Shown in pieces: positions 12,219 to 43,328 of a stretch of DNA of 64,000 bases. The notes beneath the pieces were generated by a model that did not search any database, was not told the origin of the DNA, and worked only from the letters and a program-made list of their open reading frames with translations. The DNA is from Gammaproteobacteria bacterium. Lineage in GTDB: Bacteria; Pseudomonadota; Gammaproteobacteria; Steroidobacterales; Steroidobacteraceae. The stretch covers positions 1 through 64,000 of the forward strand of contig JAQGOG010000089.1 of the NCBI GenBank assembly GCA_028293765.1, in the 5' to 3' direction. Numbering within the stretch: the stretch's first letter is position 1; the number at the start of each line of letters is the position of its first letter. A program made the translations under genes and the position numbers.

Positions 12219-12569
12219 TCAGCCCAACAGCTCTTCGAGCTTCGCCGGCTTGTTCTGCTGGAGGATTTTGCGGGCGCTCGCGATTTCGTAGTCCGCGCGC
12301 GGGTGCACGGTGACAGCCGAGGCGCCTTTGAGCACGCGCGCGGCGAAATCTTCGGCCTGCGCCTGCTCCTGGTTCTGATCGAAAATCGTATGGAAGTAAT
12401 TCGCGACGCGCTCGCCGAAGGCGTCCCCGGGTTCCGCGTCCGCCTGGCCCGCCTCGAGTCGGGAGGTGACTTCGACACGGTCGGTCGCGAACCCGTCGGC
12501 GACGAGTTGTGTCCTGACACGGGTGGCGATTCCGTAGTCGTCATAAAGCGCAACGATCACTGGCGTCAT
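12219..12569 (-). CDS. Small protein resembling the GSP17M/YflT stress-protein domain
   Basis: A 116-residue soluble protein. The opening MTPVIVALYDDYGIATRVRTQLVADGF and a later VANYFHTIF ... EDFAARVLKGASAVTVHP ... ARKILQQNKPAKLEELL match the pattern I know from the general stress protein 17M-like (YflT) domain: a beta-alpha start, an Arg/Lys-Gly turn, a Val-rich strand and a closing helix. The assignment is by pattern memory and not certain. No catalytic residues are seen. Its promoter would lie in 12570-12680, opposite the DUF5658-type gene. Confidence 0.5.
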   Translation of the reverse strand: MTPVIVALYDDYGIATRVRTQLVADGFATDRVEVTSRLEAGQADAEPGDAFGERVANYFHTIFDQNQEQAQAEDFAARVLKGASAVTVHPRADYEIASARKILQQNKPAKLEELLG

Positions 12570-12679
12570 AGAGCCCTCCTCGATAGCAAACGGCCGGCTA
12601 CGGCGCCGGTTCCGGGTGCCTCGGGGATGTGAGCCCCGTCACGCTCTGGCCGCCGCCCCTGCGGGGCCGCGCCGTTACA

Positions 12680-13222
12680 ATGAGCGCTCGAGGGATAGCC
12701 CATTCACTGGAAAAGCAAGAAATCGTGACCATTGAGTCCCAGAGCCAGGGAACGGCCACACCCGCGGAGGGTGACGGGGACCGTCGTCGCGCCTCGGATC
12801 GCCGCAAGGAGCCTCTGCGTGCACTGCTGCACGGGAGCTTCAATCCCCGCCGCCGCGGCTCGCGGCGTGATGGTGAGAGGAGCGTGAGCGGTCTGGATTG
12901 GCATCACCCGCAATGGCTCGCCGTGGCGATGCTCATTGTGCTGTTTTCCTGCGCCGATGCGTTTCTGACGCTGACGCTGATGGATCGCGGCGCGTACGAG
13001 GTCAATCCCCTCATGGCGCCCCTGGTGGGCGGCTCGGCCCTGGCGTTCGCGATGGTCAAGATAGGGCTTACCTCTGGCGGCGTCGTCCTGCTGACGCTTC
13101 TCGCCCGGATGAAGGCATTCGGCCGGCTCCCGGTGAGTCTGCTGCTCTACACGGTGCTCGCGGGCTATGGCGTGCTCATCGCGTACGAGTTCCAGCTGCT
13201 GCAGGAGGCGCTGCCGTCCTGA
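12680..13222 (+). CDS. DUF5658-like small membrane protein
   Basis: About 180 residues from the ATG at 12680. Other possible starts are 12629 and a GTG at 12725, and none has a convincing ribosome site. The N-terminal ~75 residues are polar and Arg-rich with DRRRASDRRKEP. Three membrane helices follow, with the signature DAFLTLTLMDRGAYEVNPLM between the first and second. The Asp in the first helix and the E-x-NPLM motif are typical of DUF5658, whose function is unknown. It lies upstream of sucA in the same direction but 105 bp away. Confidence 0.65.
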   Translation: MSARGIAHSLEKQEIVTIESQSQGTATPAEGDGDRRRASDRRKEPLRALLHGSFNPRRRGSRRDGERSVSGLDWHHPQWLAVAMLIVLFSCADAFLTLTLMDRGAYEVNPLMAPLVGGSALAFAMVKIGLTSGGVVLLTLLARMKAFGRLPVSLLLYTVLAGYGVLIAYEFQLLQEALPS

Positions 13223-13327
13223 TCCGGCTGGGCTGAATCGGAACGGCGTCACGGTGCATTGAGGTGAACGCGTTTCCTCGCGGACGGTATTCCGCTAAAC
13301 TAGCGCTTCGCTGTTTGCTTCTTCAGC

Positions 13328-16267: not shown

Positions 16268-17565
16268 CGACTGAAATCCGGGTTCCCCAACTGCCCGAAT
16301 CCGTGGCGGACGCGACGCTCGTGGCGTGGCACAAACAGCCTGGCGATGCAATCAAGCGCGACGAGAACCTGGCCGACCTGGAGACCGATAAGGTCGTTCT
16401 GGAGGTCCCGGCGCCCGCCAACGGCGTGGTCCGCGAGATCAAAGTGCAAAGCGGCACGGTCGTCACCAGCGGCCAGCTGCTAGCGATCATTGAAGTCGGC
16501 GCCGCAGCCACGGCATCGACTGGAAAAGCTGCCGCCTCCGCGAGCGCGCCTGCTTCGGCGACCGCTGCGAAAGCCGCTTCCACGGCAAGTGTGTTGCTAG
16601 CCGCCGAGGGCCAGGCCAACAGCGGCGATGGCGCCAACAAACTCAGCCCCTCCGTGCGCCGCCTCGTCGAGGAGAACAAGCTCAATCCTGGCGCCATTCC
16701 CGCGTCCGGCAAAGATGGCCGGCTGACTAAGTCGGACGTCGTCGATTTCCTTGGCAAGAAGGAGCCGGACACGGCTGCGCCGGCGGCACGGTCGGAACCA
16801 GCGGTGGCAACCGCACCTGCCGCGCGAGCCCCGGCTCCCACGCCCGGTGCCCGGCAGGGCGGCAGCCGCACCGAACAGCGCGTGACAATGACGCGACTGC
16901 GCCAGCGCATCGCTCAGAGACTCGTCGAGGCCCAGTCCACACAAGCCCTCCTGACTTCCTTCAACGAAGTCGACATGACGGCCGTGATGGAGCTGCGCAA
17001 CCGTTACAAGGACCGTTTCGAGAAAGAACAGGGTGTGAAGCTCGGTTTCATGTCGTTCTTCGTGAAGGCGTCGATCGAAGCGCTCAAGAAGTTTCCGGCC
17101 GTGAACGCGTCCGTTGACGGCAACGATGTCATCTACCACGAGTACTACGACATCGGTGTCGCCGTCTCGACGGACCGTGGACTCATGGTTCCGATCGTGC
17201 GGGACGCGGACGTCAAGAGCTTCGCGACGATCGAAAAGGAAATCGGAAACTTCGCCAAGAAGGCACGCGAAGGCACGATTGCGATCGAGGACCTTACCGG
17301 CGGCACGTTCACCATCACCAACGGCGGGGTATTCGGTTCGCTCATGTCGACGCCGATCGTGAACGCCCCGCAGAGCGCGATTCTCGGCATGCACAAGACG
17401 CAGGAGCGGCCGATGGTGGTCAACGGGCAGATCGTCATCCGGCCGATGATGTACCTCGCCGTCACCTACGATCACCGGATTATCGACGGGCGGGAAGCGG
17501 TGCAATTCCTCGTGACTGTGAAAGAGTCCCTCGAAGACCCCGGCAGGATGTTGTTGGGCGTCTAG
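16264..17565 (+). CDS. sucB: 2-oxoglutarate dehydrogenase E2, dihydrolipoyl succinyltransferase
   Basis: A 433-residue E2. The N-terminal lipoyl domain carries the modified Lys 43 in [14 protein letters not shown]. An Ala-rich linker leads to the E1/E3-binding domain ([20 protein letters not shown]), a second Ala/Pro linker, and the catalytic acyltransferase domain ending [17 protein letters not shown] with the HxxxDG motif. It transfers the succinyl group to CoA and forms the 24-mer core of the complex. It is co-transcribed with sucA. The lpd gene follows after 96 bp. Confidence 0.97.
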
Positions 17566-17576
17566 CCCCCGCGCTT

Positions 17577-17594
17577 TCCCGCAACTGCGCGGGA
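17577..17594. terminator. Small hairpin between sucB and lpd
   Basis: TCCCGC at 17577-17582 pairs with GCGGGA at 17589-17594 around a 6-nt loop, 12 nt past the sucB stop. No T-run follows. It may lower readthrough or protect the 3' end of sucAB mRNA rather than terminate fully. Confidence 0.3.
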
Positions 17595-17661
17595 GGTTGC
17601 GCCCCGCCACTTCGCCCCAATAAATTAGCCTAAAGGCAAGCAGCCTAAGCTGGAGCTTTCA

Positions 17662-19089
17662 ATGTCCGACCATTTCGATGTCGTCGTCATCGGCGGCGGT
17701 CCCGCCGGCTATCCGGCCGCGATCCGCGCAGCCCAGAATAAACTCAGCGTCGCCTGCATCGACGAATGGAAGAACAAAGACGGCGCGCCCGCGTTCGGCG
17801 GCACCTGCCTGAATGCCGGCTGCATTCCCTCCAAGGCGCTACTCGAGTCCACCGAGCTCGTTCACCGTGCGAATCACGAATTCGCGGCCCACGGGATTAC
17901 CACGTCTAACGTCAGTGTCGACCTCGGGCAGATGCAGAAGCGCAAGTCCGGCATCGTCAAGACGATGACCCAGGGAATCCTCGCTCTCTTCAAGGCAGCC
18001 GGCGTGACGCCTCTGCAGGGCCACGGCAAGCTGCTTTCCGGTCACCGCATCGAGTTTACGGCTCACGACGGGACCAAGCGTGAGCTCACTGCCAAGAACA
18101 TCATCCTGGCTGCGGGCTCCGCTCCGGTCGAGCTGCGCTCGGCGCCGTTCCAAACCCCACAGATCGTCGACTCCTGGGGCGCGCTGGATTTCGACTCCGT
18201 ACCGAAGCGCCTTGGCGTCATCGGCGCGGGCGTGATCGGACTGGAGCTGGGTAGCGTCTGGCGACGCCTCGGGAGCGAGGTCGTGGTGCTCGAGGCGCTG
18301 CCTGACTTTCTCGCAATCGCCGATCAACAGCTGGCGAAGGAAGCTCTGCGCCACTTCAAGAAGCTCGGCCTCGATGTCCGGCTCGGTGCCAAAGTGACGG
18401 GAGCCACTATCGCGGGCGACGCCGTCGATGTGACTTACACCGACGCCAAGGGCGAGCAGAAACTGACGGTCGACAGGCTCGTGGTTGCGATCGGCCGCCG
18501 TCCTTACACGCAAGACCTGCTGGGCACCGAGACCGGTGTCGAGCTCGACGAGCGCGGGTTCATCAAGGTCGATCATGAATGCCGCACCGGCGCGGAGGCA
18601 ATCTGGGCTGTCGGCGATTGTGTGCGTGGCCCGATGCTGGCTCACAAGGGCAAGGAAGAGGGCGTGATGGTTGCAGACCTGATTGCCGGCCGCTTTGCAG
18701 AGGTCAACTACAAGACTGTTCCGTCCGTCATCTACACCGCGCCGGAGATCGCGTGGGTGGGACTCACCGAGGAACAGGTGAAGGCGCAGGGTACGGCATA
18801 CAAAGTGGGCGTCTTCCCGTTCCTGGCCAGCGGTCGTGCGCGCGCGATGGAGCAGGCACAGGGATTCACCAAACTCATCGCCGCAAAGGAGGACGACGAG
18901 ATCCTCGGCGTGCACATCATCGGCCCGATGGCGGGCGAGCTGATCGCCGAGGCCGTTCTGGCGATGGAGTATTCGGCGAGCAGCGAAGACCTGCAGCGTA
19001 CGATCCATGCACATCCCACTCTGTCCGAGGGGTTGCATGAGGCGGCGTTGGCGGTCGACAAGCGCGCCATCGATTCGATCAACAAGTAG
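17662..19089 (+). CDS. lpd: Dihydrolipoyl dehydrogenase (E3)
   Basis: A 475-residue FAD-dependent disulfide oxidoreductase. The FAD-binding GGGPAGYPAAIRAAQ is followed by the redox disulfide GGTCLNAGCIPSKALL. The NAD-binding motif is GVIGAGVIGLELGSVW, the second FAD segment is AIWAVGDCVRGPMLAHK, and the catalytic His-Glu lies in IHAHPTLSEG. It reoxidises dihydrolipoamide on SucB and passes electrons to NAD+. It is the third gene of the sucA-sucB-lpd cluster. sucC, sucD and sdh genes are not in this window. Confidence 0.98.
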   Translation: MSDHFDVVVIGGGPAGYPAAIRAAQNKLSVACIDEWKNKDGAPAFGGTCLNAGCIPSKALLESTELVHRANHEFAAHGITTSNVSVDLGQMQKRKSGIVKTMTQGILALFKAAGVTPLQGHGKLLSGHRIEFTAHDGTKRELTAKNIILAAGSAPVELRSAPFQTPQIVDSWGALDFDSVPKRLGVIGAGVIGLELGSVWRRLGSEVVVLEALPDFLAIADQQLAKEALRHFKKLGLDVRLGAKVTGATIAGDAVDVTYTDAKGEQKLTVDRLVVAIGRRPYTQDLLGTETGVELDERGFIKVDHECRTGAEAIWAVGDCVRGPMLAHKGKEEGVMVADLIAGRFAEVNYKTVPSVIYTAPEIAWVGLTEEQVKAQGTAYKVGVFPFLASGRARAMEQAQGFTKLIAAKEDDEILGVHIIGPMAGELIAEAVLAMEYSASSEDLQRTIHAHPTLSEGLHEAALAVDKRAIDSINK

Positions 19090-19107
19090 CGGCCGTCTCT
19101 CGAGCCC

Positions 19108-19127
19108 GCGGCGGCCAGCGCCGCCGC
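19108..19127. terminator. Hairpin at the convergent end of lpd
   Basis: GCGGCGGC at 19108-19115 pairs perfectly with GCCGCCGC at 19120-19127 around a 4-nt loop, 18 nt after the lpd stop. Flanking CGAGC/CTCG may extend it. It lacks a T-run. The position between lpd and the convergent TonB fusion gene supports a terminator serving one or both. Confidence 0.45.
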
Positions 19128-19192
19128 TCGACCCAGGCGCCAAGCCAGGTCTGGCTGCTGGTCCTATCTGCCTGCACGTGACCAGGAGCCGG

Positions 19193-20878
19193 CTATGGTT
19201 CGTGCTGGTCCAGCTTGAATTGCAGGCGCAACTGGACATGCGCCGCGACCGGAGCGCCATTTACGGTCTTCGGCTCGTATTTCCAGCGACGTACGGCTGT
19301 AAGCGCCGAGTGATTGAAAACGTCGGGGGGATCCGAGTGCACAACGGTCACATCGCTTACCGATCCGTCGCTCGAGACTGTAACGGCGACGTCGACCACG
19401 CCTTCGATGCCCCTATTGGCGGCACTTGGCGGGTATTCCGCGGATACGTGTTTGACGAGCCGCGCTTCCCGGGTGACCGGCGGCGACGCGTCGAATCTTG
19501 GCGCAGGGGTTGCCGTTGCTTGCGAGGGAGTCACGCTGTGCTGCGAGATTATGCCGCCGTTGGAGTCTTCCAGGGTTTTCCCGGGGAAAGTTCCGTGTGA
19601 CGAGGGGCCGGGCGCGGACGCAGCCGTTGCAGCAGTTGCCGCAGGCGCTGGAGCAGGGCGCGTCGCCTCATCGAAGCCAGGTGTGTGCGCGGAAGCCGGA
19701 GCAGGTTGTGTCCCTTGACCGTCCATTGCGGTAGTCGTGGATGCTCGCGCCGCGGACAACGTGTTTGATCCGTTAGCTCCGTTAGCTCCGTCAGCGGGTC
19801 GCGATTTTCTGAGAAGAGGAGTCGCATTGCGAACGTGCGCGGGTTCGCGGGGCGGCGAGGCTGACGTCGCAGCGGAGGTTCGACGTTGTGTTCCCCGTTC
19901 GGGCCGGGCCGACGTTACGATCGGTGCCGCAGCGGAGCTGTCTCCGTGCCGCCTGAGAAGGGATTCGAAGAACGACAACCGCGGATGATTGGGTGCAATC
20001 TGGTGCAGGGTCTGCACGTCTGCGCGCGCACGCCTGAAGTCGTCTTGCTGCAGAGCTGTTTCGGTCTCAGCGACGAGCTTGATCACTTCGGCAGAGTAGT
20101 GCGGCGTCCGCACCACTGACACGCCGGTCGCGGCCGGGGACGATTCAGCGCTTGGGTTAAAGAGCTTGAACGCAATTTCCATCACGCCGAGTACGAGGAC
20201 GACGCTCGCACCCACCAGGAAGGCACGGCGTTTGGTGCCGGTGTCTTCGGTCAACCGAGGGTGCCTGGAGCGGGCCGCCATCGCCATCCGGGACGCTTCC
20301 GACAGGGAGTCGCGTTCCGGACGCGCTGCTGCGCGCAGACGCGAAGCAGGTTCACCGGATGTGCGCGACGGCGGAGTGACCCCGTAAGCCGCGGAGCGCG
20401 ACTGACTGGATGGCGACATAGCGCGGCGCGTCGGTGCGGTGGGCCGCACTGGCGCTGGCGCGGGCGGAGATTCTTCGACGCCGTCGCCCTGCTGGATGTC
20501 GGCCATGTCGTCGGCAGCGTCGTTCGGAGCGCCGGCGGCTGACAGCGCGGCGAGCAGTTGGCGAGCCTCTATGGGGTAAGACAGGGTTCGGAACAGCCCG
20601 AACGGTCCCAGGCGGCCTTGCAGCAGTTTCAACCGTTCCCGCTCGGCGGCGAAAATCCTCAGCATGCCCGGACGGTGTTTGCCCAGCTGCCCCAACAGCT
20701 CCAGACCCGAGCCGTCCTCGAGACGCTCGCCGGCTACGATGACCTCGAACTCGTTAGCTCGCAGGAGATCGAGGCAATCCGCCTTCGTGGTGACCGCGTC
20801 GATGGCGCAATACCGGCCCAGCGACTGCGTGATCGCTGTGAGAAGTGCGGAATCCTGATCGACGAGGAGTACGCGCAT
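19193..20878 (-). CDS. Degenerate receiver domain - transmembrane - TonB C-terminal fusion protein
   Basis: A 561-residue protein with an unusual domain order. Residues 1-110 look like a response-regulator receiver (MRVLLVDQDSALLTAI; FEVIVAGERLEDGSGLELL), but the phospho-accepting Asp is Gly 50 and the conserved Lys-Pro is Tyr-Pro at 101-102. A disordered Pro/Ala/Arg linker follows, then one membrane helix at about 217-240 (RRAFLVGASVVLVLGVMEIAF). A long, presumably periplasmic Ala/Pro/Ser/Thr region ends in a TonB domain: KHVSAEYPPSAANRGIEG and RRWKYEPKTVNG. The topology would put the receiver in the cytoplasm and TonB in the periplasm, so it may link an intracellular signal to outer-membrane transport. 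No exbB/exbD is adjacent. It lies downstream of relA on the same strand, separated by 210 bp and a strong hairpin. Confidence 0.85.
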   Translation of the reverse strand: MRVLLVDQDSALLTAITQSLGRYCAIDAVTTKADCLDLLRANEFEVIVAGERLEDGSGLELLGQLGKHRPGMLRIFAAERERLKLLQGRLGPFGLFRTLSYPIEARQLLAALSAAGAPNDAADDMADIQQGDGVEESPPAPAPVRPTAPTRRAMSPSSQSRSAAYGVTPPSRTSGEPASRLRAAARPERDSLSEASRMAMAARSRHPRLTEDTGTKRRAFLVGASVVLVLGVMEIAFKLFNPSAESSPAATGVSVVRTPHYSAEVIKLVAETETALQQDDFRRARADVQTLHQIAPNHPRLSFFESLLRRHGDSSAAAPIVTSARPERGTQRRTSAATSASPPREPAHVRNATPLLRKSRPADGANGANGSNTLSAARASTTTAMDGQGTQPAPASAHTPGFDEATRPAPAPAATAATAASAPGPSSHGTFPGKTLEDSNGGIISQHSVTPSQATATPAPRFDASPPVTREARLVKHVSAEYPPSAANRGIEGVVDVAVTVSSDGSVSDVTVVHSDPPDVFNHSALTAVRRWKYEPKTVNGAPVAAHVQLRLQFKLDQHEP

Positions 20879-33935: not shown

Positions 33936-35372
33936 CTAAGTGCCGACGCGGTTGTCCGCATCGAGGCCGAAATCCGCCCTCGCAGCCAGCGTTTTCTCGT
34001 GCTCCAGATCAATTGAGCGGCAGGCGGCCAGATAGACCAGCGCCGCGATCGGCAATCCCACCAGCATTGCGATATCCGCTCCCCCCAGCGCGCGAGCGAT
34101 CGGTCCCTGGTAAATCCCAGTGCTGAAGAACGGGATCATCGCTACGAAACCAACCGCGTAAGCCAGCAGGCCGCGCCAGTTCCACTGTCCGTACATCCCG
34201 TCCGGATTGAAAATCTCGCGTATCGAGTAGTGCCCTTTGCGAACCACATAGAAGTCGACCAGGTTGATCGCGGTCCAGGGCGTAAACAGATACAGCAGCA
34301 GAGCGAGCAGATCCGCGAAGCGATTGATGAACTCGCCCGACGCGCTCAGCGCAATTCCCGTCGACACCAGCATTGCCGCCAGCAGGCTGACAATCCGTTT
34401 GCTCACCGTGCACTGCAGCGGCCTGAAGGTGTCGGCCACGCTCAGTAGCGTCAGCGAGGCGCCATAGAAGTTGAGAGCCGAAACCGTCACCAGTCCGAGC
34501 AGACCGCCGAGCAACAGTACCTTTCCAAGTCCGGGAATGATCGCATCGGCAGCACGTTCCATCGCAGCCGCAACATCGAGCTTGGGACTGGTGGCAGCGG
34601 CGGCGATGGTGCCGACGAGCATCATCCACGTGCCGCCTATGAAGGCGCCAAGATACGTCCACCAGAACGATGCGCGGACGCCAACGTCGCGCGGCAGATA
34701 GCGCGAATAGTCTGACACGTAAATCGACCAACTCAGTTGGTACGATGCCGCCGCAAACAACTCCGCGAGGAAGGGCACGGCTTTGAAACCCGCCAGGTCC
34801 CACTGCACCGCGGGAACTTCGAGCCTGAACAGTGCCCCGACCGAGAAGACGGACAGAATCGCGATCATCAGATAGGCAAATGCCCGTTGGGCAAAGTGGA
34901 TCTTGTCGTACCCGACGATGGCGAGCGCCACGGCCGCCGCCGCAAACAGAATGATTGCGACCGGCGAGGCCGGGGCAATGGAGCCGGACAGTTGATGCAG
35001 CGCCTGGGCGGCGAGGACCTGATTGAAAGCGTTGAAGCCGATGTAGGCGATCAGGGCCACGGCCCACACCAGCAGCGCACCGGTGTACCCAAACTGCGGC
35101 CGTGACTGGATCATCTGCGGTAGTCCGAGTCGCGGACCCTGCGTGGAATGAAACGCCATGAAGAACGTGCCGAGCGCACATCCTGCGATGACCGCAATTC
35201 CAGTCCACAGCAGGTTCCCACCGAGCGTAATCCCGAGCACGCCCACTGCGAGCGTCGCGAGATGAGCATCGCCCGAGAACCACACGGTCCACAGATGCCA
35301 TACCTTCCCGTGACGTTCAGCGAGCGGCACGTAGTCGATCGAGCGCTTTTCCATGAGCGAAGCGTTGTTCAT
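33936..35372 (-). CDS. NCS1-family permease (purine/cytosine permease-like)
   Basis: About 478 residues from the ATG at 35372 (a TTG at 35399 and an ATG at 35354 are alternatives). It shows the NCS1 opening SIDYVPLAERHGKVWHLWTVWF, about twelve membrane helices and the family's RPQFGYTGALLVWAVALIAYIGFNAF. NCS1 carriers import nucleobases, hydantoins, thiamine precursors or related small cations by Na+ or H+ symport. The gene is divergent from the carnitine dehydrogenase fusion with only 151 bp between. It may therefore supply a quaternary-ammonium substrate to this cluster, which would be unusual, since carnitine is normally taken up by BCCT or ABC systems. Confidence 0.88.
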   Translation of the reverse strand: MNNASLMEKRSIDYVPLAERHGKVWHLWTVWFSGDAHLATLAVGVLGITLGGNLLWTGIAVIAGCALGTFFMAFHSTQGPRLGLPQMIQSRPQFGYTGALLVWAVALIAYIGFNAFNQVLAAQALHQLSGSIAPASPVAIILFAAAAVALAIVGYDKIHFAQRAFAYLMIAILSVFSVGALFRLEVPAVQWDLAGFKAVPFLAELFAAASYQLSWSIYVSDYSRYLPRDVGVRASFWWTYLGAFIGGTWMMLVGTIAAAATSPKLDVAAAMERAADAIIPGLGKVLLLGGLLGLVTVSALNFYGASLTLLSVADTFRPLQCTVSKRIVSLLAAMLVSTGIALSASGEFINRFADLLALLLYLFTPWTAINLVDFYVVRKGHYSIREIFNPDGMYGQWNWRGLLAYAVGFVAMIPFFSTGIYQGPIARALGGADIAMLVGLPIAALVYLAACRSIDLEHEKTLAARADFGLDADNRVGT

Positions 35373-35434
35373 CGTGCCGGCTGAGCCTTTCTCCCCCAAT
35401 CGAGTCGCCCGGAATGTACGCGTGCGGTGCCGTT

Positions 35435-35462
35435 TATTATATTATTACGACGACATTATAAA
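35435..35462. promoter_or_regulatory. AT-rich candidate operator/promoter between permease and carnitine dehydrogenase genes
   Basis: The divergent gap contains ATTATATTATT at 35436-35446, then eight bases, then ATTATAA. The same 11-bp word occurs in inverse orientation at 43318-43328, upstream of the BKACE operon. Such an AT block stands out in this G+C-rich DNA. It could be a promoter core, the operator of the TetR-type regulator encoded two genes away, or both. Confidence 0.45.
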
Positions 35463-35523
35463 AGCGAACGCGCGGCTGCCCGCAAGCCCGGGAGCGGCGG
35501 TTCGGCGAGTGGACGAGGCGAGG

Positions 35524-37035
35524 ATGGCGAAAATGATGCGACAGGTGAAAACGCTGGGGCTGCTGGGTACGGGCGTCATCGGGGGCGGCTGGGCGGCCCG
35601 GGCGCTGCATTTTGGGATCGACGTCCTGGCGGCCGACGTGAAGCCGGAAATGGAGGCCTGGATTCGCGGCGCCGTCGAGAATGCGGAAGGGGCGCTGTCC
35701 CGCCTGACGTTCGCGCCGCTGCCGCCGAAGGGGAAGTTGTCGTTCACGACGGACCTGGCCGCTATGGCGCGGCAGGTGGACTTCATTCAGGAGAACATCC
35801 CGGAGCAGCTCGAGTTGAAACAGCGAGTGCTCGCTGAAGTCAGCCACCACGCAGCGTCCGACGTCATCATCGCTTCCAGCACATCCGGCCTGATGCCTTC
35901 CGACCTGCAACGGGACATGGCAGCGCCGGAGCGGTTTCTCGTCGCTCATCCCTTCAATCCCGTCTACCTCTTGCCGCTGGTGGAGCTGGTCGGCGGCAAC
36001 GCGACCTCACCCGAGGCTCTGGATGCCGCCAGCCGTTTCTTCACCGAAATCGGCATGCATCCCCTCAAGGTGCGGCGAGAAATCCCCGGCCATTTGACCG
36101 ATCGGCTGCAGGAGGCGCTGTGGCGCGAGATCCTGCATCTCGTCAACGACGGAGTGGCCACCACCGGCGAGCTCGATGACTCGATCGTGTACGGTCCGGG
36201 CTTGCGCTGGGCGGCGATGGGCACGAACCTGATCTATCATCTTGCCGGCGGCGAGCCCGGCATGCGCCACATGCTCAAGCAGTTCGGTCCCTGCCTGAAA
36301 TGGCCGTGGACGAAGCTCGAGGCCCCGGAGCTCACCGAGCAGCTGATCGACCGGATGGTCGAGGGCACGCAGGCCCAGGCCAACGGCCGCTCGATCCGGG
36401 AGATCGAGCGCCTCAGGGACGACTACCTCGTCGCCATCCAGCAGGTGCTGCGGCAATACAACATCGGCGCCGGATCGACCTTGCGGGCTCTCGAGGAACG
36501 CCTCTACGAGCGGAATGGGGCAGCGGCGCGAGCCGGTAGCGGCGCGGCCGCCGGCGAAGATTGTGCGCAGCCTCTGCGTCTCATCGAGACTCATGTCCGT
36601 CCGGAGTGGGTCGACTACAACGGCCACATGACCGACTCGCGCTACCTGCAGGTATTCGGAGATGCAACGGACGCGCTGTACCGATCGGTAGGGGTGGACG
36701 ATGCGTATCGTCAGTCAGGACGAGCCCTGTACGCCGTCGAATCGCACATGACCCACAATGCCGAAGCGCAGGCGTTGGAGCCGCTCTATGTCACGACGCG
36801 GGTGGTTGGTGTGGACGAGAAACGAGTTCACCTGTTTCATTGCCTGCACCGACGGCGCGACGATGCCCTGGTTGCGACGGGTGAGCACATCTACCTGCAT
36901 GTGAATTCCACGGCCAAAAAGGCCGCACCCATGGACCCGGCCGTCCGCGCGAAACTGGAGAAGATCCACACGGCGCAGGCGGCGCTCCCGGCGCCTGTGC
37001 AGGTCGGCCGGCACGTCGGCATGCCCAGGAGTTGA
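35524..37035 (+). CDS. L-carnitine dehydrogenase fused to a hotdog thioesterase
   Basis: About 503 residues. Residues 1-330 are a 3-hydroxyacyl-CoA-dehydrogenase-like NAD enzyme of the L-carnitine dehydrogenase group: GLLGTGVIGGGWAARAL (GxGxxG at 15-20), ASSTSGLMPSDLQ and the catalytic His 142 in AHPFNPVYLLPLVELVGG. It oxidises L-carnitine to 3-dehydrocarnitine. Residues about 350-500 are a thioesterase domain (RPEWVDYNGHMTDSRYLQV), a fusion known from rhizobial carnitine dehydrogenases and thought to hydrolyse betainyl-CoA. The ATG at 35524 or one at 35533 could start it; the latter has GAGG at better spacing. A TetR gene follows after 9 bp. Confidence 0.88.
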   Translation: MAKMMRQVKTLGLLGTGVIGGGWAARALHFGIDVLAADVKPEMEAWIRGAVENAEGALSRLTFAPLPPKGKLSFTTDLAAMARQVDFIQENIPEQLELKQRVLAEVSHHAASDVIIASSTSGLMPSDLQRDMAAPERFLVAHPFNPVYLLPLVELVGGNATSPEALDAASRFFTEIGMHPLKVRREIPGHLTDRLQEALWREILHLVNDGVATTGELDDSIVYGPGLRWAAMGTNLIYHLAGGEPGMRHMLKQFGPCLKWPWTKLEAPELTEQLIDRMVEGTQAQANGRSIREIERLRDDYLVAIQQVLRQYNIGAGSTLRALEERLYERNGAAARAGSGAAAGEDCAQPLRLIETHVRPEWVDYNGHMTDSRYLQVFGDATDALYRSVGVDDAYRQSGRALYAVESHMTHNAEAQALEPLYVTTRVVGVDEKRVHLFHCLHRRRDDALVATGEHIYLHVNSTAKKAAPMDPAVRAKLEKIHTAQAALPAPVQVGRHVGMPRS

Positions 37036-37044
37036 GGAGTCCAG

Positions 37045-37710
37045 ATGCCCAAGATCGTCGATCACGAACAACGCCGCGACGAGATCGCGCTCGTCGCCTG
37101 CCGGGTCGTGGCGGAACACGGCTTCGATCAGGCCACCATTGTCCGCATAGCGCGCGAAGCGGGCTACACGACCGGCATGGTGGCGCATTATTTCGATACC
37201 AAGCAGGAGATCGTCATCGCGGCTTTGCGGTTGATCCTGCGCCGTATCGAGGAGCGACTCACGCGACCTGACGAGGACGTGCAGGCGGACCTGCTGACGG
37301 TGCTGACGGAGGCCCTCCCGGTCGATGAGCACCGCTTTACCGAATGCGCCTTCTGGACGGCCTTTTGGGGCCAGGTGTCCGCCGACAAGAAGCTGAAGCG
37401 CATCAACGCCTGGGTGCACCGGGAGTACATGCGGCTGTTCGAGCGTTGCCTCGCCCAGGGATGGCCGGAGTGGGGACAGTGGTCGCCAGGTGTGCGCGAA
37501 CAGATCCTGCGGTCCGTGATGACGTTCATCAACGGCCTCACGGCCAGCGCAGTGGCCAGCCAGAGCGACTGGCCGGCGGCGAAACAGATCGAACAGCTGC
37601 GATTGCAACTCCAACTGCTGCACGCCTGGGCGGTGGATATGGCGGTGGCGAGTCCTGAGAAGCTCAGAAAGAGCCAGAAGACGTCCGCGTCGGGATCGTC
37701 TGCCGCGTAA
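37045..37710 (+). CDS. BetI-like TetR family transcriptional regulator
   Basis: A 221-residue protein. The N-terminal helix-turn-helix is RRDEIALVACRVVAEHGFDQ, ATIVRIAREAGYTTGMVAHY and FDTKQEIVIAAL. The ligand domain contains WTAFWGQVSADKKLKRIN and ends in QLQLLHAWAVDM, as in BetI-type repressors that sense choline or related betaines. It lies between the carnitine dehydrogenase and acyl-CoA dehydrogenase genes in one operon, so local repression with a carnitine-type ligand or its CoA ester is plausible. Confidence 0.9.
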   Translation: MPKIVDHEQRRDEIALVACRVVAEHGFDQATIVRIAREAGYTTGMVAHYFDTKQEIVIAALRLILRRIEERLTRPDEDVQADLLTVLTEALPVDEHRFTECAFWTAFWGQVSADKKLKRINAWVHREYMRLFERCLAQGWPEWGQWSPGVREQILRSVMTFINGLTASAVASQSDWPAAKQIEQLRLQLQLLHAWAVDMAVASPEKLRKSQKTSASGSSAA

Positions 37711-37740
37711 GCATCGATTTATTGCAGGGGGAGGTGCCCG

Positions 37741-38904
37741 ATGGATTTCGCTCTCACTGAAGAACAGCAGATGATCGTCAAGGCCACGCGCGACTTCGTG
37801 CGCGAGGAGCTCATGCCTCACGAGCAGGAGGTGGAGGCGACGGGCGAGTTGCGCCAAGAGCTGTTGGGCGAGCTGAAAGCGAGGGCGATCGAAGCCGGGC
37901 TGTACGCCGCCAACATGCCTGCCGAAGTGGGCGGCGTGGGGCTGGACACCGTGACCTGGGTGCTCTACGAGAAAGAGCTCGGCCGCACGAGTTACGTTCT
38001 CCACTACGCCTGCGTTGCAAGACCGTCGAACATCCTGCTCGCGTGCGCAGGGGAGCAGCGGGAGCGGTATCTGCTTCCCGCCGTGCGCGGCGAGAGGACC
38101 GAATGCCTGGCGATGACCGAGCCGGACGCGGGCTCGGACCTGCGCGGCATGAAGACCACGGCCGTCGAGAAGGATGGCGACTTCATCATCAATGGCACGA
38201 AGCACTTCATCAGCCACGTCGATCATGCGGACTTCGTCATCCTGTTCGCGGCCACGGGCGAGGAGGAGATTCCACGGGGCAAGCGCAAGCTCATCACGGC
38301 ATTCCTGGTGGACGTGGGTACACCGGGTTTCGAGGTGCGGCCCGGCTACAGGAACGTCTCACATCGCGGCTACACCAACAGCATCCTGCAGTTCACCGAC
38401 TGCCGGATCCCGAAGTCGGCCGTGCTCGGTGGGCTTCACCAAGGATTCGAAGTCGCGAACACCTGGCTCGGCGCGACTCGCCTGCAAGTGGCGGCCAACT
38501 GCCTGGGCCGAGCGGAGCGGGCTCTCGAGCTCGCCAAGCAGTGGGCGGTGGATCGAGTGCAGTTCGGTCAGCAGATCGGAAAGTTCCAGGGGGTCGCTTT
38601 CAAGCTCGCGGATATGGCCGTGGAGCTGCGTGCGGCGGAGTTGCTTACGCTGGAGGCTGCCTGGAAGTTGGATCACAGAACCGCCACGGACATGGATATG
38701 GCGATCGCGAAGCTCAAGGCGAGCGAGATGCTTGCCATGGTGGCCGACGAGGCGCTGCAGATTCACGGCGGGATGGGGTTGATGTCGGATCTGCCGCTCG
38801 AGCGGATCTGGCGGGATGCGCGGATCGAGCGAATTTGGGATGGGACCAGCGAGGTGCAGCGGCACATCATCTCGCGTGCATTGCTGCGGCCTTTAGGGGG
38901 ATGA
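37741..38904 (+). CDS. Acyl-CoA dehydrogenase (candidate gamma-butyrobetainyl-CoA dehydrogenase)
   Basis: A 387-residue flavin acyl-CoA dehydrogenase with MDFALTEEQQMIVKATRDFV, the FAD/substrate motif CLAMTEPDAGSDLRGMKTTA, NGTKHFISHVDHADF, RVQFGQQIGKFQGV, and ALQIHGGMGLMSDLPLERIW before the C-terminal RDARIERIWDGTSEVQ. Family enzymes introduce a 2,3-double bond into acyl-CoAs. Context (CaiD-like hydratase, carnitine dehydrogenase, acyl-CoA ligase) suggests oxidation of gamma-butyrobetainyl-CoA to crotonobetainyl-CoA; the substrate is inference. It is the third gene of the operon and convergent with the CaiD-like gene 18 bp away. Confidence 0.85.
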   Translation: MDFALTEEQQMIVKATRDFVREELMPHEQEVEATGELRQELLGELKARAIEAGLYAANMPAEVGGVGLDTVTWVLYEKELGRTSYVLHYACVARPSNILLACAGEQRERYLLPAVRGERTECLAMTEPDAGSDLRGMKTTAVEKDGDFIINGTKHFISHVDHADFVILFAATGEEEIPRGKRKLITAFLVDVGTPGFEVRPGYRNVSHRGYTNSILQFTDCRIPKSAVLGGLHQGFEVANTWLGATRLQVAANCLGRAERALELAKQWAVDRVQFGQQIGKFQGVAFKLADMAVELRAAELLTLEAAWKLDHRTATDMDMAIAKLKASEMLAMVADEALQIHGGMGLMSDLPLERIWRDARIERIWDGTSEVQRHIISRALLRPLGG

Positions 38905-38922
38905 AAAGCTGACGAGCTTAGG

Positions 38923-39699
38923 TTATTTCCCGGTCCAGGTTGGTTTGCGCTTTGCGGCGAAGGCGCGCGCGCCTTCCACGAGATCGTCCGACCGGATGAC
39001 CTTTTGAACTGCGTGGAGATTGTCGTGCAGCTCGAACGCCTGATGTTCGGGCACCATCTCGGTATGACGCAGGAGCTGCTTGATTGCCGGAAACAGCAGA
39101 GGCGGACCGTCGGCCAGCTGCTTGGCGATCTCGCGAGCCTTAGTGAGACTCTGACCTGTCGGGACGACGTGGTTGGCCAGGCCCCAGTGCCTGGCTTCTG
39201 TCGCGTCCATCCACCGGCCAGTCATCAGGAATTCTACGGCGATGTGGTAGGGGATGCGGCGACGGAGCTTGATCGTGCCGGCGTCCGCCAATACCGCGAC
39301 GTTGATTTCCGGGAGCGCAAAGCGGGCATGCTCTTCCATGACGATGATGTCCGTTCCGAGGACGATCTCGAAGCCGCCGCCGCATGCGATGCCGTTTACC
39401 GCGGAGATAAGTGGTTTGTCCAGGTTGCGCGGGTAGTTCAGGCCGCCGAATCCGCCGCTGCCCCAATCCTCGTCGGATTTTTCGCCTTCCGCCGCCGCTT
39501 TGAGATCCCAACCGGCGCAGAAGAAGCGGTCGCCGCTCCCCGTAACGATCGCGACGCGCAGCTGGGGGTCGTCGCGGAACGCAGTGAACACGTCATTCAG
39601 TCGGCGGCTGGCCGCCAGGTTGATCGCGTTTGCCTTGGGGCGATTGAGCGTTACCTCGAGAATCGCGCCGTCGGTGGTGACCTCAATACCATCTGACAT
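38923..39699 (-). CDS. CaiD-like enoyl-CoA hydratase (crotonobetainyl-CoA hydratase)
   Basis: A 258-residue crotonase. It follows E. coli CaiD closely in places: ILEVTLNRPKANAI, FRDDPQLRVAIVTGSGDRFF and AGWDLKAAAEGEKSD, then the oxyanion-hole segment VNGIACGGGFEIVLGTDIIV and a C-terminal AFAAKRKPTWTGK. CaiD hydrates crotonobetainyl-CoA to L-carnitinyl-CoA. The position in an operon with BKACE, a thioesterase and an acyl-CoA synthetase fits that role. It is the last gene of the reverse-strand operon and starts 1 bp after the synthetase stop. Confidence 0.88.
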   Translation of the reverse strand: MSDGIEVTTDGAILEVTLNRPKANAINLAASRRLNDVFTAFRDDPQLRVAIVTGSGDRFFCAGWDLKAAAEGEKSDEDWGSGGFGGLNYPRNLDKPLISAVNGIACGGGFEIVLGTDIIVMEEHARFALPEINVAVLADAGTIKLRRRIPYHIAVEFLMTGRWMDATEARHWGLANHVVPTGQSLTKAREIAKQLADGPPLLFPAIKQLLRHTEMVPEHQAFELHDNLHAVQKVIRSDDLVEGARAFAAKRKPTWTGK

Positions 39700-39700
39700 A

Positions 39701-41767
39701 TCAGTGCTCCTCCAGGAGGCGGATCAGCGCGTCCACTGCGACAGCGCCGAGGCCTGCCGGTCGAACGATGACGGGGTTGATGTCCAGCTCGAGGAGAGTA
39801 TCAACATTTGCTTCGGCGTAGCGCGTGCAGGCCAAGGCAGCCTCTACCAGAGCTGTAACGTCGGCTGGGGGGCGACCGCGATAACCGGTGAGCAGTTTTG
39901 CTACGGCGAGCTTGCCTATCGCCGCTTCGATTGCCGTTGCGGTAAAGGGCGGCAGCAGGCTGACGGTGTCTCGCAACAGCTCCGTCAGGACACCGCCGGC
40001 ACCGAGTACGAGGATCTGACCGAACTGCGGGTCGACGGTCATGCCAATGAGTACTTCCGCGACGCCGTCCGTCACCATTTCCTCGACGAGCATCGCGTCC
40101 GAGAGTCGCGAGAGTCGCTCCGCCGCGGCCTTCGCGTCAGCAGAATTTCGTATGTTGATGACGACGCCGCCGACGTCCGATTTGTGTTCCAGCGCAGCGC
40201 TTGCAGCCTTGATGACGACCGGAAAGCCGATTGCTTCGGCAGCATCCGTGACATCGGGCGGGCTCACGACCCGCGAGCGGGGTACGCGCACTCCGAAGGC
40301 AGCCAACGCCTCTTTTCCCTCCTGCTCGGAGAGCGTTCTCGAGGGGCGCAAAGTGTCGCTGAGACGAGGTATCCGTAGCTCCACGCGTTGGCCACTTGCC
40401 CAGACTTCTCCAATTCCGGCGGCGAGATCCAGCGCCTCCAGGGCTTGGCGCTGCCCTTGTAGCGGCACGATTCCGGCGGCCAGGCACTTCTCGCGGGTCT
40501 CGGCGGCTAGCGATTCCGGTAACGAGCAAATCACTGCGCCGCGAGTCGGCGCGCCGGGGAATGCGGCTATGAATTCGTCGATTACGGCAACGTAGCTCGC
40601 GGAATCAGCCTTCGCTGCGGGCGGGCAGTCGACCATGAAGCCGACGGCGTCGAACCCGGCTCGCTGGACGACGGAAAACATCGAACGCAGCGCGGGGCGG
40701 TCGAACCACACGTGCGTGTGGAAATCGAATGGGTTGGAGATATGGACCCGGTCGCTCAGGATCGCGCGGAGGCTGGTGACCGAGTCGGCGGGAATCGGCG
40801 GAAACTCGACCCCAAGGTCGCGGGACGCGTCCGCGGTCATTGCCATGTCGCCGCCGGATGCACCCATCACGAGCACCCGCCGGCCGGTAAGGGGACCTCC
40901 GCTGTGGAGCACCTTCAAGGTCTCACAGAGGGTCGCGAGCGAATCGCAGCGCGCGAGCCCCGCTTGCTTACAGAACGAGTCAAAGACCGCATCGGCTCCA
41001 GCCAAGGCTCCAGTATGGCTGCGCGCCGTTCTTGCGGCGGCTTCGGTGCGCCCGGCTTTGACGATGGCAATGGGCTTGCCGGCGGCTCTGGCTTTAGCGA
41101 CCGCGCGAGCGAAACGTGCGGCGTCTTTGATGCCTTCCACGTAAAGGCCGAATGCCGTGACTCGCTCGTCCTGCGAGAGCAGCTCGATCATGTCTTCGAC
41201 GGCGAGGCATGTCTGGTTGCCGACCGTCAGGACATAACCGATCGGCAGCGACCGCTCATTGAAGAGCAGATTCAATGCAATGGTGCCGCTCTGGCAGATG
41301 AGGGCCACCCCGCGCTCGCGCCGACCACCGACGACTTGGTCCGGCCAGAGCGCAGCCGCGTCGAAGAAGTTGATGAACCCGTAACAGTTCGGGCCGAAGA
41401 ACGGCAAGTCGCCGGCGCTGGCAACCAGCTCCTGCGTCAGGCGTACGCCTGCCTCGCTTGCGGTTTCGGAAAAGCCCGCCGCAAAACACACGAATCCGCC
41501 CGCCCCGCGACGCGAAAGCGCCGCCGCTATGTTGGGCACTTCGACATTCGGAGCGGCGATGAACGTGGCGTCCGGCGCGCCGGGAAGCTCATCGACCGAG
41601 CGGAAGTAGGGTGTGCCAGTGGAGGAGGGCCGTTTCGGATGAACGCGCCACACTTCGCCGGTGTAGCCGATGGAGAGCGAGGCTGCGGCGACCGCATCGG
41701 CCCACGCGCCACCGATAAGCGCGATACTGCGCGGGGCGAGAAGTCGCTTGATGGCCGAGGGACTCAT
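39701..41767 (-). CDS. ADP-forming acyl-CoA synthetase (acetyl-CoA synthetase/Pat-like, alpha-beta fused)
   Basis: A 688-residue protein. The CoA-binding domain (LLAPRSIALIGGAWADAVAA; FFGPNCYGFINFF) is followed by succinyl-CoA-ligase-like domains with the phosphohistidine in ARSHTGALAGADAVFD (His 251), and a C-terminal ATP-grasp domain (GFPVVIKAASAALEHKSDVG; LVEEMVTDGVAEVLIGM). It joins a carboxylate to CoA with ATP giving ADP and phosphate. In this operon the likely substrate is gamma-butyrobetaine, crotonobetaine or carnitine, taking the place of the AMP-forming CaiC known from E. coli. No acetyltransferase domain is present, so it is not a Pat-type regulator. Confidence 0.87.
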   Translation of the reverse strand: MSPSAIKRLLAPRSIALIGGAWADAVAAASLSIGYTGEVWRVHPKRPSSTGTPYFRSVDELPGAPDATFIAAPNVEVPNIAAALSRRGAGGFVCFAAGFSETASEAGVRLTQELVASAGDLPFFGPNCYGFINFFDAAALWPDQVVGGRRERGVALICQSGTIALNLLFNERSLPIGYVLTVGNQTCLAVEDMIELLSQDERVTAFGLYVEGIKDAARFARAVAKARAAGKPIAIVKAGRTEAAARTARSHTGALAGADAVFDSFCKQAGLARCDSLATLCETLKVLHSGGPLTGRRVLVMGASGGDMAMTADASRDLGVEFPPIPADSVTSLRAILSDRVHISNPFDFHTHVWFDRPALRSMFSVVQRAGFDAVGFMVDCPPAAKADSASYVAVIDEFIAAFPGAPTRGAVICSLPESLAAETREKCLAAGIVPLQGQRQALEALDLAAGIGEVWASGQRVELRIPRLSDTLRPSRTLSEQEGKEALAAFGVRVPRSRVVSPPDVTDAAEAIGFPVVIKAASAALEHKSDVGGVVINIRNSADAKAAAERLSRLSDAMLVEEMVTDGVAEVLIGMTVDPQFGQILVLGAGGVLTELLRDTVSLLPPFTATAIEAAIGKLAVAKLLTGYRGRPPADVTALVEAALACTRYAEANVDTLLELDINPVIVRPAGLGAVAVDALIRLLEEH

Positions 41768-41851
41768 TTACTAAGCCACAAATCTCCACCGTAACCGCAA
41801 GTAGGGGCGGCGCTTGCGTCCAGCGTTGCATACAGAGTGATGCGAGCTAAC

Positions 41852-42328
41852 CTATCTACGGCGCAATTCGATGCTGCGCGAGCCCGGCCAAGAGGCAGGC
41901 GCGTTCGCCGTTGCCTCGACAAGCGCTGCGATCGCGCCGCTGATCTCGGGCGGAAAGGGCGCAGTGGCTACCGTTTCCCCCTGATGTACGTGCAAGAGCA
42001 GGAGCTCAGCACTTGCGGCCGCATCCGCGTCGCCCTCGCGTGTGAGATCGAAGGCCGCGTGGATTCTCTTGTGATCGGCGCCGAGCATACGCACGGTCAC
42101 CAGCACGGCGTCCGATTTCTTGACCTCGCGGAGATAGTGGATGTGCATCTCCACGGTGTACAGCGTATTGCGCGTCCGCTCGCGATAGGGCGCGTCCATC
42201 CCCAGCCGGTCCATGAGCGCGTCGCTCGCGTAACTCACGATCAGACCGTAGTACGCGTCCCGCAGATGACCGTTGTAGTCGATCCACTCCGGCTCGAGCG
42301 CAGTCCGATAAATGAGTTCTCCCGCCAC
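41852..42328 (-). CDS. Hotdog thioesterase of the carnitine cluster
   Basis: About 158 residues from a GTG at 42328, which has GAGGGAG eight bases upstream; a GTG at 42346 lacks such a site. The signature EPEWIDYNGHLRDAYYGLIV resembles that of the domain fused to carnitine dehydrogenase (RPEWVDYNGHMTDSRYLQV), so the two are homologues. In known carnitine clusters such enzymes hydrolyse betainyl-CoA to glycine betaine. With two copies here, one may instead release carnitine from carnitinyl-CoA. It lies between BKACE and the acyl-CoA synthetase in the reverse-strand operon. Confidence 0.85.
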   Translation of the reverse strand: MAGELIYRTALEPEWIDYNGHLRDAYYGLIVSYASDALMDRLGMDAPYRERTRNTLYTVEMHIHYLREVKKSDAVLVTVRMLGADHKRIHAAFDLTREGDADAAASAELLLLHVHQGETVATAPFPPEISGAIAALVEATANAPASWPGSRSIELRRR

Positions 42329-42374
42329 GGTCCACTTCTCCCTCACTGCGGTCGAACCGCTGGGTGCGGTTTCA

Positions 42375-43274
42375 TCAACCCAGTTTCAGTCGCTCCCGCG
42401 TCTGCGCCGGAGTGAGAACGCGAGCTCCCATGGCTTCGATGATCGTGCGCGCCTTCTCGACCAACTGCGCATTGCTCGCATACACACCGCGGCTCAAGTA
42501 CAGATTGTCCTCGAGACCCACCCGCACATTGCCGCCGAGGAGGAGGGATTGGGCCACCCATGGCATCTGCATGCGGCTAACGGCGAAGGACGTCCAAATC
42601 GCGCCCGGGGGCAGCGTATTCACCATTGCGAGCAGGTGACCCGTATCCGCGGGCACACCGTACGGAATTCCCATGCAGAGCTGGATCAAGGCGGGCGAGG
42701 GGATGAGGTCCTCCTTGATCATCTGCCTGACGAACCAGAGATTGCCCGTGTCGAACACTTCGAGCTCCGGCTTCACTCCGAGGTCCCGCAGAATGCCGGC
42801 GCCTTTGCGCAGGTAATTCGGCGTGGAGATATAAGCGCGGTTGCCATCGCCGAAGTTGAGACTGCCGCAGTCGAGTGTGGCGATGTCGGGGCGATAGAGG
42901 CCCTCCTGGCACAGGTCGATTACGTGCCGCATCCGGTCTTCCTGGCTCACGAAATCCGTGCCCGGCGCGGGTGTGTCTTGCAGACCATTGTCGCCGACAC
43001 AGATGTAGCCACCCATGCCGCAGGTGAGGTTGACGATCACGTCGACCTTGCTCTCGCGGATTCGCTTCACGACCTCGCGATAGTGGCGCGTCTCCATGCT
43101 GAAAGCGCCGGTCTCGGGGTCGCGCACGTGGATGTGCACGATAGCGGCGCCAGCCTTTGCGGCCTCGATCGCCGTAGTGGCGATCTGCTCAGGCGTGATC
43201 GCGCAATGGGGGCTTTTGGTGACCTTGGTGTCGTCGCCCGTAACGGCGCACGTGATGATGACGTCAGGATTCAT
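42375..43274 (-). CDS. BKACE (DUF849) beta-keto acid cleavage enzyme, likely dehydrocarnitine-cleaving
   Basis: A 299-residue TIM-barrel zinc enzyme. MNPDVIITCAVTGDDTKVTK opens it. Zinc ligands His 47 and His 49 are in AIVHIHVRDPETGAF, with more active-site residues in LDCGSLNFGDGNR and VRVGLEDNLYLSRG. BKACE enzymes condense a beta-keto acid with acetyl-CoA. Genes linked to carnitine dehydrogenase act on 3-dehydrocarnitine, giving betainyl-CoA and acetoacetate. It is the first gene of the reverse-strand operon, with the AT-rich candidate operator 30-55 bp upstream. Confidence 0.92.
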   Translation of the reverse strand: MNPDVIITCAVTGDDTKVTKSPHCAITPEQIATTAIEAAKAGAAIVHIHVRDPETGAFSMETRHYREVVKRIRESKVDVIVNLTCGMGGYICVGDNGLQDTPAPGTDFVSQEDRMRHVIDLCQEGLYRPDIATLDCGSLNFGDGNRAYISTPNYLRKGAGILRDLGVKPELEVFDTGNLWFVRQMIKEDLIPSPALIQLCMGIPYGVPADTGHLLAMVNTLPPGAIWTSFAVSRMQMPWVAQSLLLGGNVRVGLEDNLYLSRGVYASNAQLVEKARTIIEAMGARVLTPAQTRERLKLG

Positions 43275-43303: not shown

Positions 43304-43328
43304 AATATTATGGGGTCAATAATATAAT
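43304..43328. promoter_or_regulatory. AT-rich inverted repeat upstream of the BKACE operon
   Basis: ATATTAT at 43305-43311 and ATAATAT at 43319-43325 form a perfect 7-bp inverted repeat with a 7-bp spacer. The overlapping word AATAATATAAT (43318-43328) is the exact reverse complement of the word at 35436-35446. It lies 30 bp upstream of the BKACE start codon, a fitting place for an operator overlapping the promoter, and 116 bp upstream of murJ. Confidence 0.5.

Follow-up and report, generated by a model that had tools for sequence, protein, structure and literature searches.

Can gamma-butyrobetaine be converted through carnitine to glycine betaine by genes lying side by side in a member of the Steroidobacteraceae? 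The question is raised by eight adjacent genes at positions 33936-43274 of the 64,000-nucleotide stretch of contig JAQGOG010000089.1 analysed here (the window), from a Gammaproteobacteria bacterium genome of 6.64 Mb and 98.8% completeness (GCA_028293765.1). An initial annotation had read this island as a coenzyme A (CoA)-linked route that unusually joins two sets of carnitine reactions, does without an O2-dependent dioxygenase and uses a set of eight genes. We consider it likely that the island is a catabolic regulon for carnitine-type betaines, leading from gamma-butyrobetaine to glycine betaine. Of the earlier interpretation, the functional tie between the entry enzymes and the carnitine core stood, while the unusual joining, the missing dioxygenase and the constancy of the eight-gene set did not. 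Gene families, conserved clustering, co-occurrence and a shared palindrome were computed; from these we infer the substrates, the direction of flow, the cargo of the transporter and the binding of the palindrome by the TetR regulator.

The adjacency of the eight genes was confirmed, each being an intact open reading frame (ORF) with a match to its family profile, in the order annotated (Table 1). They form two blocks with facing 3' ends, the termini of the acyl-CoA dehydrogenase (ACAD) and the CaiD-like enoyl-CoA hydratase (ECH) being 18 bases apart. From a single divergent promoter region in block 1, the NCS1 permease is read leftward and the carnitine dehydrogenase (CDH), TetR and ACAD genes rightward; block 2 runs leftward from a second promoter region in the order BKACE, stand-alone thioesterase (TE2), ligase, ECH.

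In the proposed route, the NCS1 permease would take up the betaine, and the ADP-forming ligase would activate gamma-butyrobetaine or crotonobetaine with CoA. The ACAD would convert gamma-butyrobetainyl-CoA to crotonobetainyl-CoA and the hydratase would convert the latter to L-carnitinyl-CoA, from which L-carnitine would be freed by a thioesterase or by the ligase acting in reverse. CDH would yield 3-dehydrocarnitine from L-carnitine, BKACE would turn 3-dehydrocarnitine and acetyl-CoA into betainyl-CoA and acetoacetate, and a thioesterase would release glycine betaine from betainyl-CoA. The two thioesterase units of the island would fit two CoA releases, from carnitinyl-CoA and betainyl-CoA, unless the ligase runs backwards.

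The carnitine core is the best defined part. CDH, with the Pfam domains 3HCDH_N, 3HCDH and 4HBT_2, scored 603.6 bits against the carnitine 3-dehydrogenase equivalog NF005716, above the cut-off of 592. Its start is probably 35536 (MRQVKT...) and not the ORF start at 35353, because an ATG is present at the matching point in all 12 loci of the genus whose fetched stretch covers the CDH start; the bases preceding 35536 are promoter region. BKACE matched PF05853 with 302.9 bits (cut-off 24.8) as the sole such protein of its genome, with 3c6c as the best solved match, and it is the linkage to CDH that suggests a specificity for 3-dehydrocarnitine. TE2 reached 81 bits against 4HBT_2 (cut-off 25.5), and among NCBIfam models it matched only that for CDH, in the thioesterase portion, with 97.8 bits against a cut-off of 592.

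The ligase, ACAD and hydratase are referred to below as the triad. The three domain types of the ligase lie within one chain, and His251, which we take to have a role in ADP-forming acyl-CoA synthetases, was invariant in 13/13 sequences; against the named equivalogs for acetate, 4-hydroxybutyrate and 3-hydroxypropionate ligases the protein scored 251-256 bits, below their cut-offs of 1200-1300. The ACAD exceeded the cut-offs of all three of its Pfam models, and its counterparts in two Rhizobium carnitine operons show 64-65% identity. For the hydratase, CaiD (NF002936) was the best of 71 NCBIfam models at an E-value of 1e-5, and Glu111 and Glu131, presumably the two catalytic glutamates of CaiD-type enzymes, were kept in all 93 relatives with at least 40% identity over 230 residues, lower matches being excluded.

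Table 1. Features of the island and their positions in the window
Feature	Position	Strand	Remarks
Permease of the NCS1 family (PF02133), candidate for the uptake of carnitine-type betaines	33936..35372	-	ORF 33936-35399, probably starting at 35372 or 35354
Putative operator palindrome between the divergent NCS1 and CDH genes	35438..35460	.	2 mismatches to TATATTATN7ATAATA
Carnitine 3-dehydrogenase with a fused 4HBT_2 thioesterase domain (putative betainyl-CoA thioesterase)	35536..37035	+	ORF from 35353
BetI-like regulator of the TetR type, probably repressing the regulon	37045..37710	+	TetR_N, TetR_C_6
Acyl-CoA dehydrogenase, putative gamma-butyrobetainyl-CoA dehydrogenase	37741..38904	+	Acyl-CoA_dh_1, _M, _N
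CaiD-like enoyl-CoA hydratase, putative crotonobetainyl-CoA hydratase	38923..39699	-	best NCBIfam model CaiD
ADP-forming acyl-CoA synthetase, putative gamma-butyrobetaine/crotonobetaine-CoA ligase	39701..41767	-	CoA_binding_2, Succ_CoA_lig, ATP-grasp_5
Stand-alone 4HBT_2 thioesterase (TE2), putative betainyl-CoA or carnitinyl-CoA hydrolase	41852..42346	-	4HBT_2
BKACE, putative 3-dehydrocarnitine : acetyl-CoA cleavage enzyme	42375..43274	-	PF05853
Palindrome, putative operator upstream of BKACE-TE2-ligase-ECH	43304..43326	.	exact match

The left neighbours of the island are genes for a TolA-binding YbgF-type protein and a tRNA-Lys, and the right neighbour is MurJ.

Conservation within the genus and a shared palindrome

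Among 37 genomes of the genus, the present one included, 23 carry a BKACE orthologue with more than 80% identity (four partial). Ligase and BKACE occur together in 21 genomes and are both absent from 13; BKACE alone was found in G018 (partial) and in G022, where a ligase fragment ends the contig, and the ligase alone in G013 (cut-off for ligase presence 1e-80, with a 34% match in G020 counted as absent). The Fisher p of 3.8e-7 for this co-occurrence ignores kinship and includes many incomplete genomes.

The BKACE orthologue is held by 17 of the 20 genus stretches that were fetched. Ligase and/or hydratase plus ACAD lie alongside it in 12 of these, one (L038) is too short to tell, and four have an alpha/beta hydrolase and a TonB receptor in that place. 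Since all eight genes stand together in three of the 17 stretches (L023, L026, L029) and seven, without NCS1, in five more (L024, L030, L032, L036, L037), the neighbourhood is not due to chance, and L024 and several other genus stretches are cut by contig ends. The full set of eight is not constant: NCS1 was not found beside CDH in five genus loci, and in four the triad does not lie between the two blocks. Another contig of the genome of L038 (L211) has the order TE2-ligase-ECH-ACAD-TetR-CDH. G001, one of the genomes with the island, holds a second cluster as well: BKACE-NCS1-ECH-ligase, together with a GlxA-like gene (L213, G001:C14, ~8029-14284).

The palindrome TATTAT-N7-ATAATA was searched for in the window as TATATTATN7ATAATA with up to three mismatches, which gave four strand-matches, corresponding to the two sites of Table 1, against 0.12 expected; none of 100 shuffles of the window exceeded three. 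Seventeen loci were scanned (the window and L022-L037), with the BKACE start present in 16 and the CDH start in 12. The palindrome lies 5' of BKACE in 16/16 (12 exact, four with one mismatch) and 5' of CDH in 12/12 (one or two mismatches). It also lies 20-23 bp upstream of all five genus-type ligases that are located apart from BKACE (L208, L209, L210, L212 and L025; one or two mismatches by strand), and 36 bp upstream of the ACAD with two mismatches in L208 and L210, with none upstream of the ACAD within two mismatches in L209. In the genome of the window, TATATTATN7ATWATA with at most one mismatch was found only at the BKACE site and at C103:36307-36327 (the CDH site, with two mismatches, falls outside this search), and a reversed control pattern gave no match. 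The palindrome was absent within one mismatch from 1.51 Mb of loci of other taxa, and within two mismatches from the glycine-betaine-type loci on C89 and C130.

The presence of this palindrome at BKACE, CDH and the separate ligases alike is good evidence of a single regulon. The TetR protein of the island, which scored 69.8 bits against the BetI equivalog TIGR03384 (cut-off 201.3), would bind the palindrome and probably represses both transcription blocks through it. A PADLOC scan of the regulator gave no match, which has no bearing on this interpretation.

Substrates of the entry enzymes

A ligase search of genome contigs returned at least 577 relatives, and the counts that follow refer to the best 80 of these, seven of them close to the genus (L054-L060, of which at least four repeat contigs of the genus set). 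The ligase is joined by ACAD and ECH in 71 loci and by CDH and BKACE in 46; all five genes occur together in 45 (46 in a looser count), or in 40/73 outside the genus. Where at least 7.5 kb was available on both sides, ACAD and ECH were present in 50/50 loci and all five genes in 33/50. The five-gene loci include members of the Rhizobiales and Rhodobacterales, in which such clustering is frequent, as well as Kiloniella, Nisaea, SAR116 and Acidimicrobiaceae. A tblastn search of plasmids with the ligase led to compact operons of R. lentis and R. etli with the order BKACE-CDH/TE-ACAD-ligase-CaiD, and to Sinorhizobium numidicum (L044), which has ligase and CaiD, weak matches to ACAD and BKACE (26% and 30%) and no CDH. 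Co-occurrence, a palindrome shared even where the genes are separate, and clustering in unrelated taxa make it probable that the triad feeds CDH and BKACE, as the initial annotation proposed, with the substrates read from gene families.

We regard it as unlikely that the triad instead serves crotonobetaine or D-carnitine, by dehydration and rehydration to L-carnitine, with gamma-butyrobetaine at most a side substrate. A ligase and a CaiD-like hydratase would, as we understand the chemistry, suffice for crotonobetaine, yet this substrate alone needs no ACAD, and ACAD and hydratase are found with the ligase in the 71 loci and in every one of the long-flanked ones.

The four genus loci with an alpha/beta hydrolase and a TonB-dependent receptor beside TE2 (L022, L025, L027 and L028, from G014, G022, G003 and G006) possibly carry a module for acylcarnitine uptake and hydrolysis; the Pfam run covered the pair of L028. 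Replacement of the triad by this pair was rejected for three of the genomes, since ACAD, ECH and ligase are located elsewhere in G003, G006 and G014, in the same convergent order, and the fourth, G022, has the ligase fragment at a contig end. Such a pair inside the core, the hydrolase having a signal-like N-terminus by eye, would suit a triad that oxidises short acyl chains freed from acylcarnitines, and the P. aeruginosa operon keeps an acylcarnitine hydrolase, HocS (PMC5806209). This alternative appears very improbable, as the eight island proteins include no thiolase and no 3-hydroxyacyl-CoA dehydrogenase besides CDH, the hydratase is nearest to CaiD, and the loci with the hydrolase are those in which the triad does not lie between the two blocks.

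Several observations weigh against a regulon leading from gamma-butyrobetaine to glycine betaine. In 17/50 well-flanked loci the triad stands without CDH, BKACE or both within ~10 kb, and it may therefore have other partners. The ACAD scored 185.4 bits against the CaiA equivalog NF002885 (cut-off 540) and the hydratase 289.9 bits against the CaiD equivalog (cut-off 500). In acyl-CoA dehydrogenases the Glu of the C-terminal EGT motif is usually the catalytic base; the island ACAD has Asp367 at this position (window 38839-38841, WDGTSE), where two solved relatives with alignments have Glu. Among 83 relatives with at least 50% identity over 340 residues (lower matches excluded, some rows repeating one contig), Asp was found in 62 and Glu in 21, both forms occurring within the genus. 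The second cluster of G001 (L213), of Rhizobium type, is without the palindrome, and the further palindrome of the genome of the window precedes the likely ATG of a dioxygenase-like gene (C103:36503) by ~140 bp.

The NCS1 permease

The permease of the initial annotation is present and could be assigned to NCS1 (PF02133, 152.1 bits, cut-off 23.5), not to the betaine/carnitine BCCT family; it remained below the cut-off of TIGR00800 (111.5 against 353.1 bits). The NCS1 family is thought to carry nucleobases and hydantoins. A BCCT transporter was sought as an alternative importer and gave no match in the genome of the window, whereas 4/14 control genomes do match. Searched alone against the PDB, the permease had no match at 1e-5; via a profile it matched Mhp1 only, with an alignment too weak to read a binding site.

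Its best plasmid homologues come from Burkholderia multivorans (65%; two records, one viewed), Novosphingobium (61%) and Rhodococcus (57%), followed by others at ~45% or less. The B. multivorans gene adjoins an oxygenase that matches the solved carnitine monooxygenase CntA with 686.8 bits, and NCS1 lies beside CntA again in two more genomes (G906 and G971, of the family of G730). The Novosphingobium gene is near BKACE-CDH, in a stretch that was first fetched through CDH and is also a top NCS1 match. Outside the genus, 5/8 stretches with a close NCS1 (57-68% identity) hold CDH, BKACE or CntA, or 4/7 distinct loci given that L140 and L050 apparently represent one plasmid. Such genes were beside none of 36 distant NCS1 copies (33-47%; p = 0.0003), which comprise 33 stretches (34 outside matches, several from one genome), the second NCS1 of the genome of the window and two of many weaker plasmid records, some of these stretches being shortened by contig ends. 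The test left out seven NCS1-bearing stretches of the genus, which all have CDH and BKACE but had been picked by BKACE or ligase. The copy in L213, found through the ligase search, shows 60% identity. In a tree, the ten copies with at least 57% identity group together with a support of 93/97, just under the tool's star mark. A search at 1e-120 in 337 genomes of the class of G602, where a positive control was lacking, gave no match.

The remaining close copies lie in L143, L051 and L134, the last a contig of 3.9 kb. L143, from the Burkholderia family, has genes for a GMC oxidoreductase and aldehyde dehydrogenases. In L051 (a plasmid of Rhodococcus sp. JS3073, ~10852-19527) the close NCS1 is accompanied by a BetI-type regulator, alcohol and aldehyde dehydrogenases, an ADP-forming ligase and an ACAD, possibly a catabolic cluster for another quaternary amine. 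That the island itself acts on a different trimethylammonium or dimethylsulfonio acid with a similar shape, as the alcohol and aldehyde oxidation genes of L051 and L143 might hint, is the least probable alternative, since the CDH of the same locus passes the carnitine 3-dehydrogenase cut-off.

We lean towards the view that the permease founds an NCS1 subfamily importing carnitine-type betaines, which became associated independently with CDH/BKACE and with CntAB, two carnitine pathways unrelated to each other, and that a BetI-like repressor acting on the palindrome runs the whole genus regulon, triad included. Against this role of the permease, no NCS1 gene was found beside CDH in the fetched stretches L030, L032, L034, L036 and L037; no search for ABC importers was made. 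If true, the cargo of NCS1 transporters would extend beyond the nucleobase and hydantoin range, and the association points to an unsuspected carnitine importer. We found no description of carnitine transport by NCS1 in the literature, as far as its text was available (including PMC9379551), and an unknown carnitine transporter has been proposed even in P. aeruginosa (PMC5806209).

Dioxygenase genes and comparison with known systems

The expectation that no O2-dependent dioxygenase is involved was not upheld. The gene at C103:36503 (locus C103:36307-37561; ~8306-10167 of L135), which resembles TmpA and gamma-butyrobetaine dioxygenase (BBOX), stands behind the same palindrome as the island. It reached 268.6 bits against the gamma-butyrobetaine dioxygenase model TIGR02409, below the cut-off of 414.75, scored higher with TmpA than with BBOX (206.3 against 139.3 bits) and is followed by a gene for an HD-domain protein weakly like PhnZ/TmpB. 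Possible functions are the formation of glycine betaine from a phosphonate and the hydroxylation of gamma-butyrobetaine; as a gamma-butyrobetaine dioxygenase the gene is neither claimed nor dismissed here, being nearer to TmpA and yet having the palindrome. The link between palindrome and dioxygenase is a single one, because the palindrome was absent within two mismatches from 20 other stretches with BBOX-like genes (L188-L207). A second BBOX match in the genome is partial and weak (55.9 bits). BBOX-like genes lie beside genes of the CoA route in L026 and in L136 (G040:C35), the latter with BKACE, CDH, thioesterase, ACAD, hydratase and ligase, so that both entries for gamma-butyrobetaine are possibly united in one cluster.

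A candidate glycine betaine demethylation locus is present in the genome of the window at C89:24151-29426 (L186), where the genes for a GbcA-like Rieske oxygenase (444.4 bits, below the cut-off of 670) and an MttB-superfamily methyltransferase diverge next to one for a RACo-type corrinoid activator. Genes of the MttB superfamily also adjoin the island in L025 (14180-16544, with a second BetI-type regulator) and L210 (11353-12903), a possible link to glycine betaine demethylation.

Among described systems, the cdh genes of the P. aeruginosa operon caiX-cdhCAB-hocS take carnitine to glycine betaine as proposed for the island, but the operon has no ligase, ACAD or hydratase, and its AraC-family regulator CdhR acts on direct repeats in place of a TetR protein and a palindrome (PMC5806209). 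The enterobacterial caiTABCDE genes specify related reactions of CoA thioesters by hydratase and ACAD (PMC2131755, PMC6514802), though this system is anaerobic and reductive, and the eight island proteins gave no match to a CoA-transferase, an AMP-binding ligase or BCCT. A SAR11 island combines CDH and BKACE with an entry for gamma-butyrobetaine, but through a dioxygenase (PMC12421898), and the gut bbu route employs CoA transferases and a trimethylamine (TMA)-lyase (PMC8364193). On a Psychrobacter plasmid, CntAB-type genes are paired with a BCCT transporter gene, and genes resembling caiA/caiB are present too (PMC6514802); in R. pomeroyi, CdhABC levels rise on N-osmolytes, carnitine among them (PMC12478193).

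The Rhizobium plasmid operons (L042, L045) hold the same five enzymes in adjacent genes, 43-65% identical to those of the island. They differ in having an AraC-type regulator (annotated as GlxA) and an ABC transporter (oligopeptide-type by annotation, L045) in place of TetR and NCS1, and no second thioesterase was found in them. Strain HK4 (an Agrobacterium/Rhizobium relative; Lonza), the genes of whose pathway are reportedly covered by patents, resembles the island, as far as its physiology is described, in CoA activation, dehydrogenation, hydration and L-carnitine dehydrogenase. In HK4, gamma-butyrobetaine and crotonobetaine are processed as CoA thioesters, with dehydrogenation and hydration steps; HK13, derived from HK4, is without L-carnitine dehydrogenase (PMC3546705, PMC2131755). 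With this aerobic CoA-linked passage to L-carnitine and its dehydrogenase described, and the five genes clustered on Rhizobium plasmids and in more than half of the loci outside the genus, the joining of these reactions is not unusual. The HK4-type gene set of ligase, dehydrogenase, hydratase and carnitine dehydrogenase is found together in the island, as judged by family, and what sets the island apart from HK4 is its gammaproteobacterial host, the BetI-like regulator and the NCS1 permease. Because the HK4 route and related CDH/BKACE systems have already been described, the island is a variant of a known pathway, with the regulator, the palindrome and the permease as the parts that hold novelty. 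For an aerobic CoA route leading from gamma-butyrobetaine to glycine betaine, of which we found only a physiological description in an industrial strain, it supplies candidate genes and a putative regulon, and the same five-gene set is present in many bacteria.

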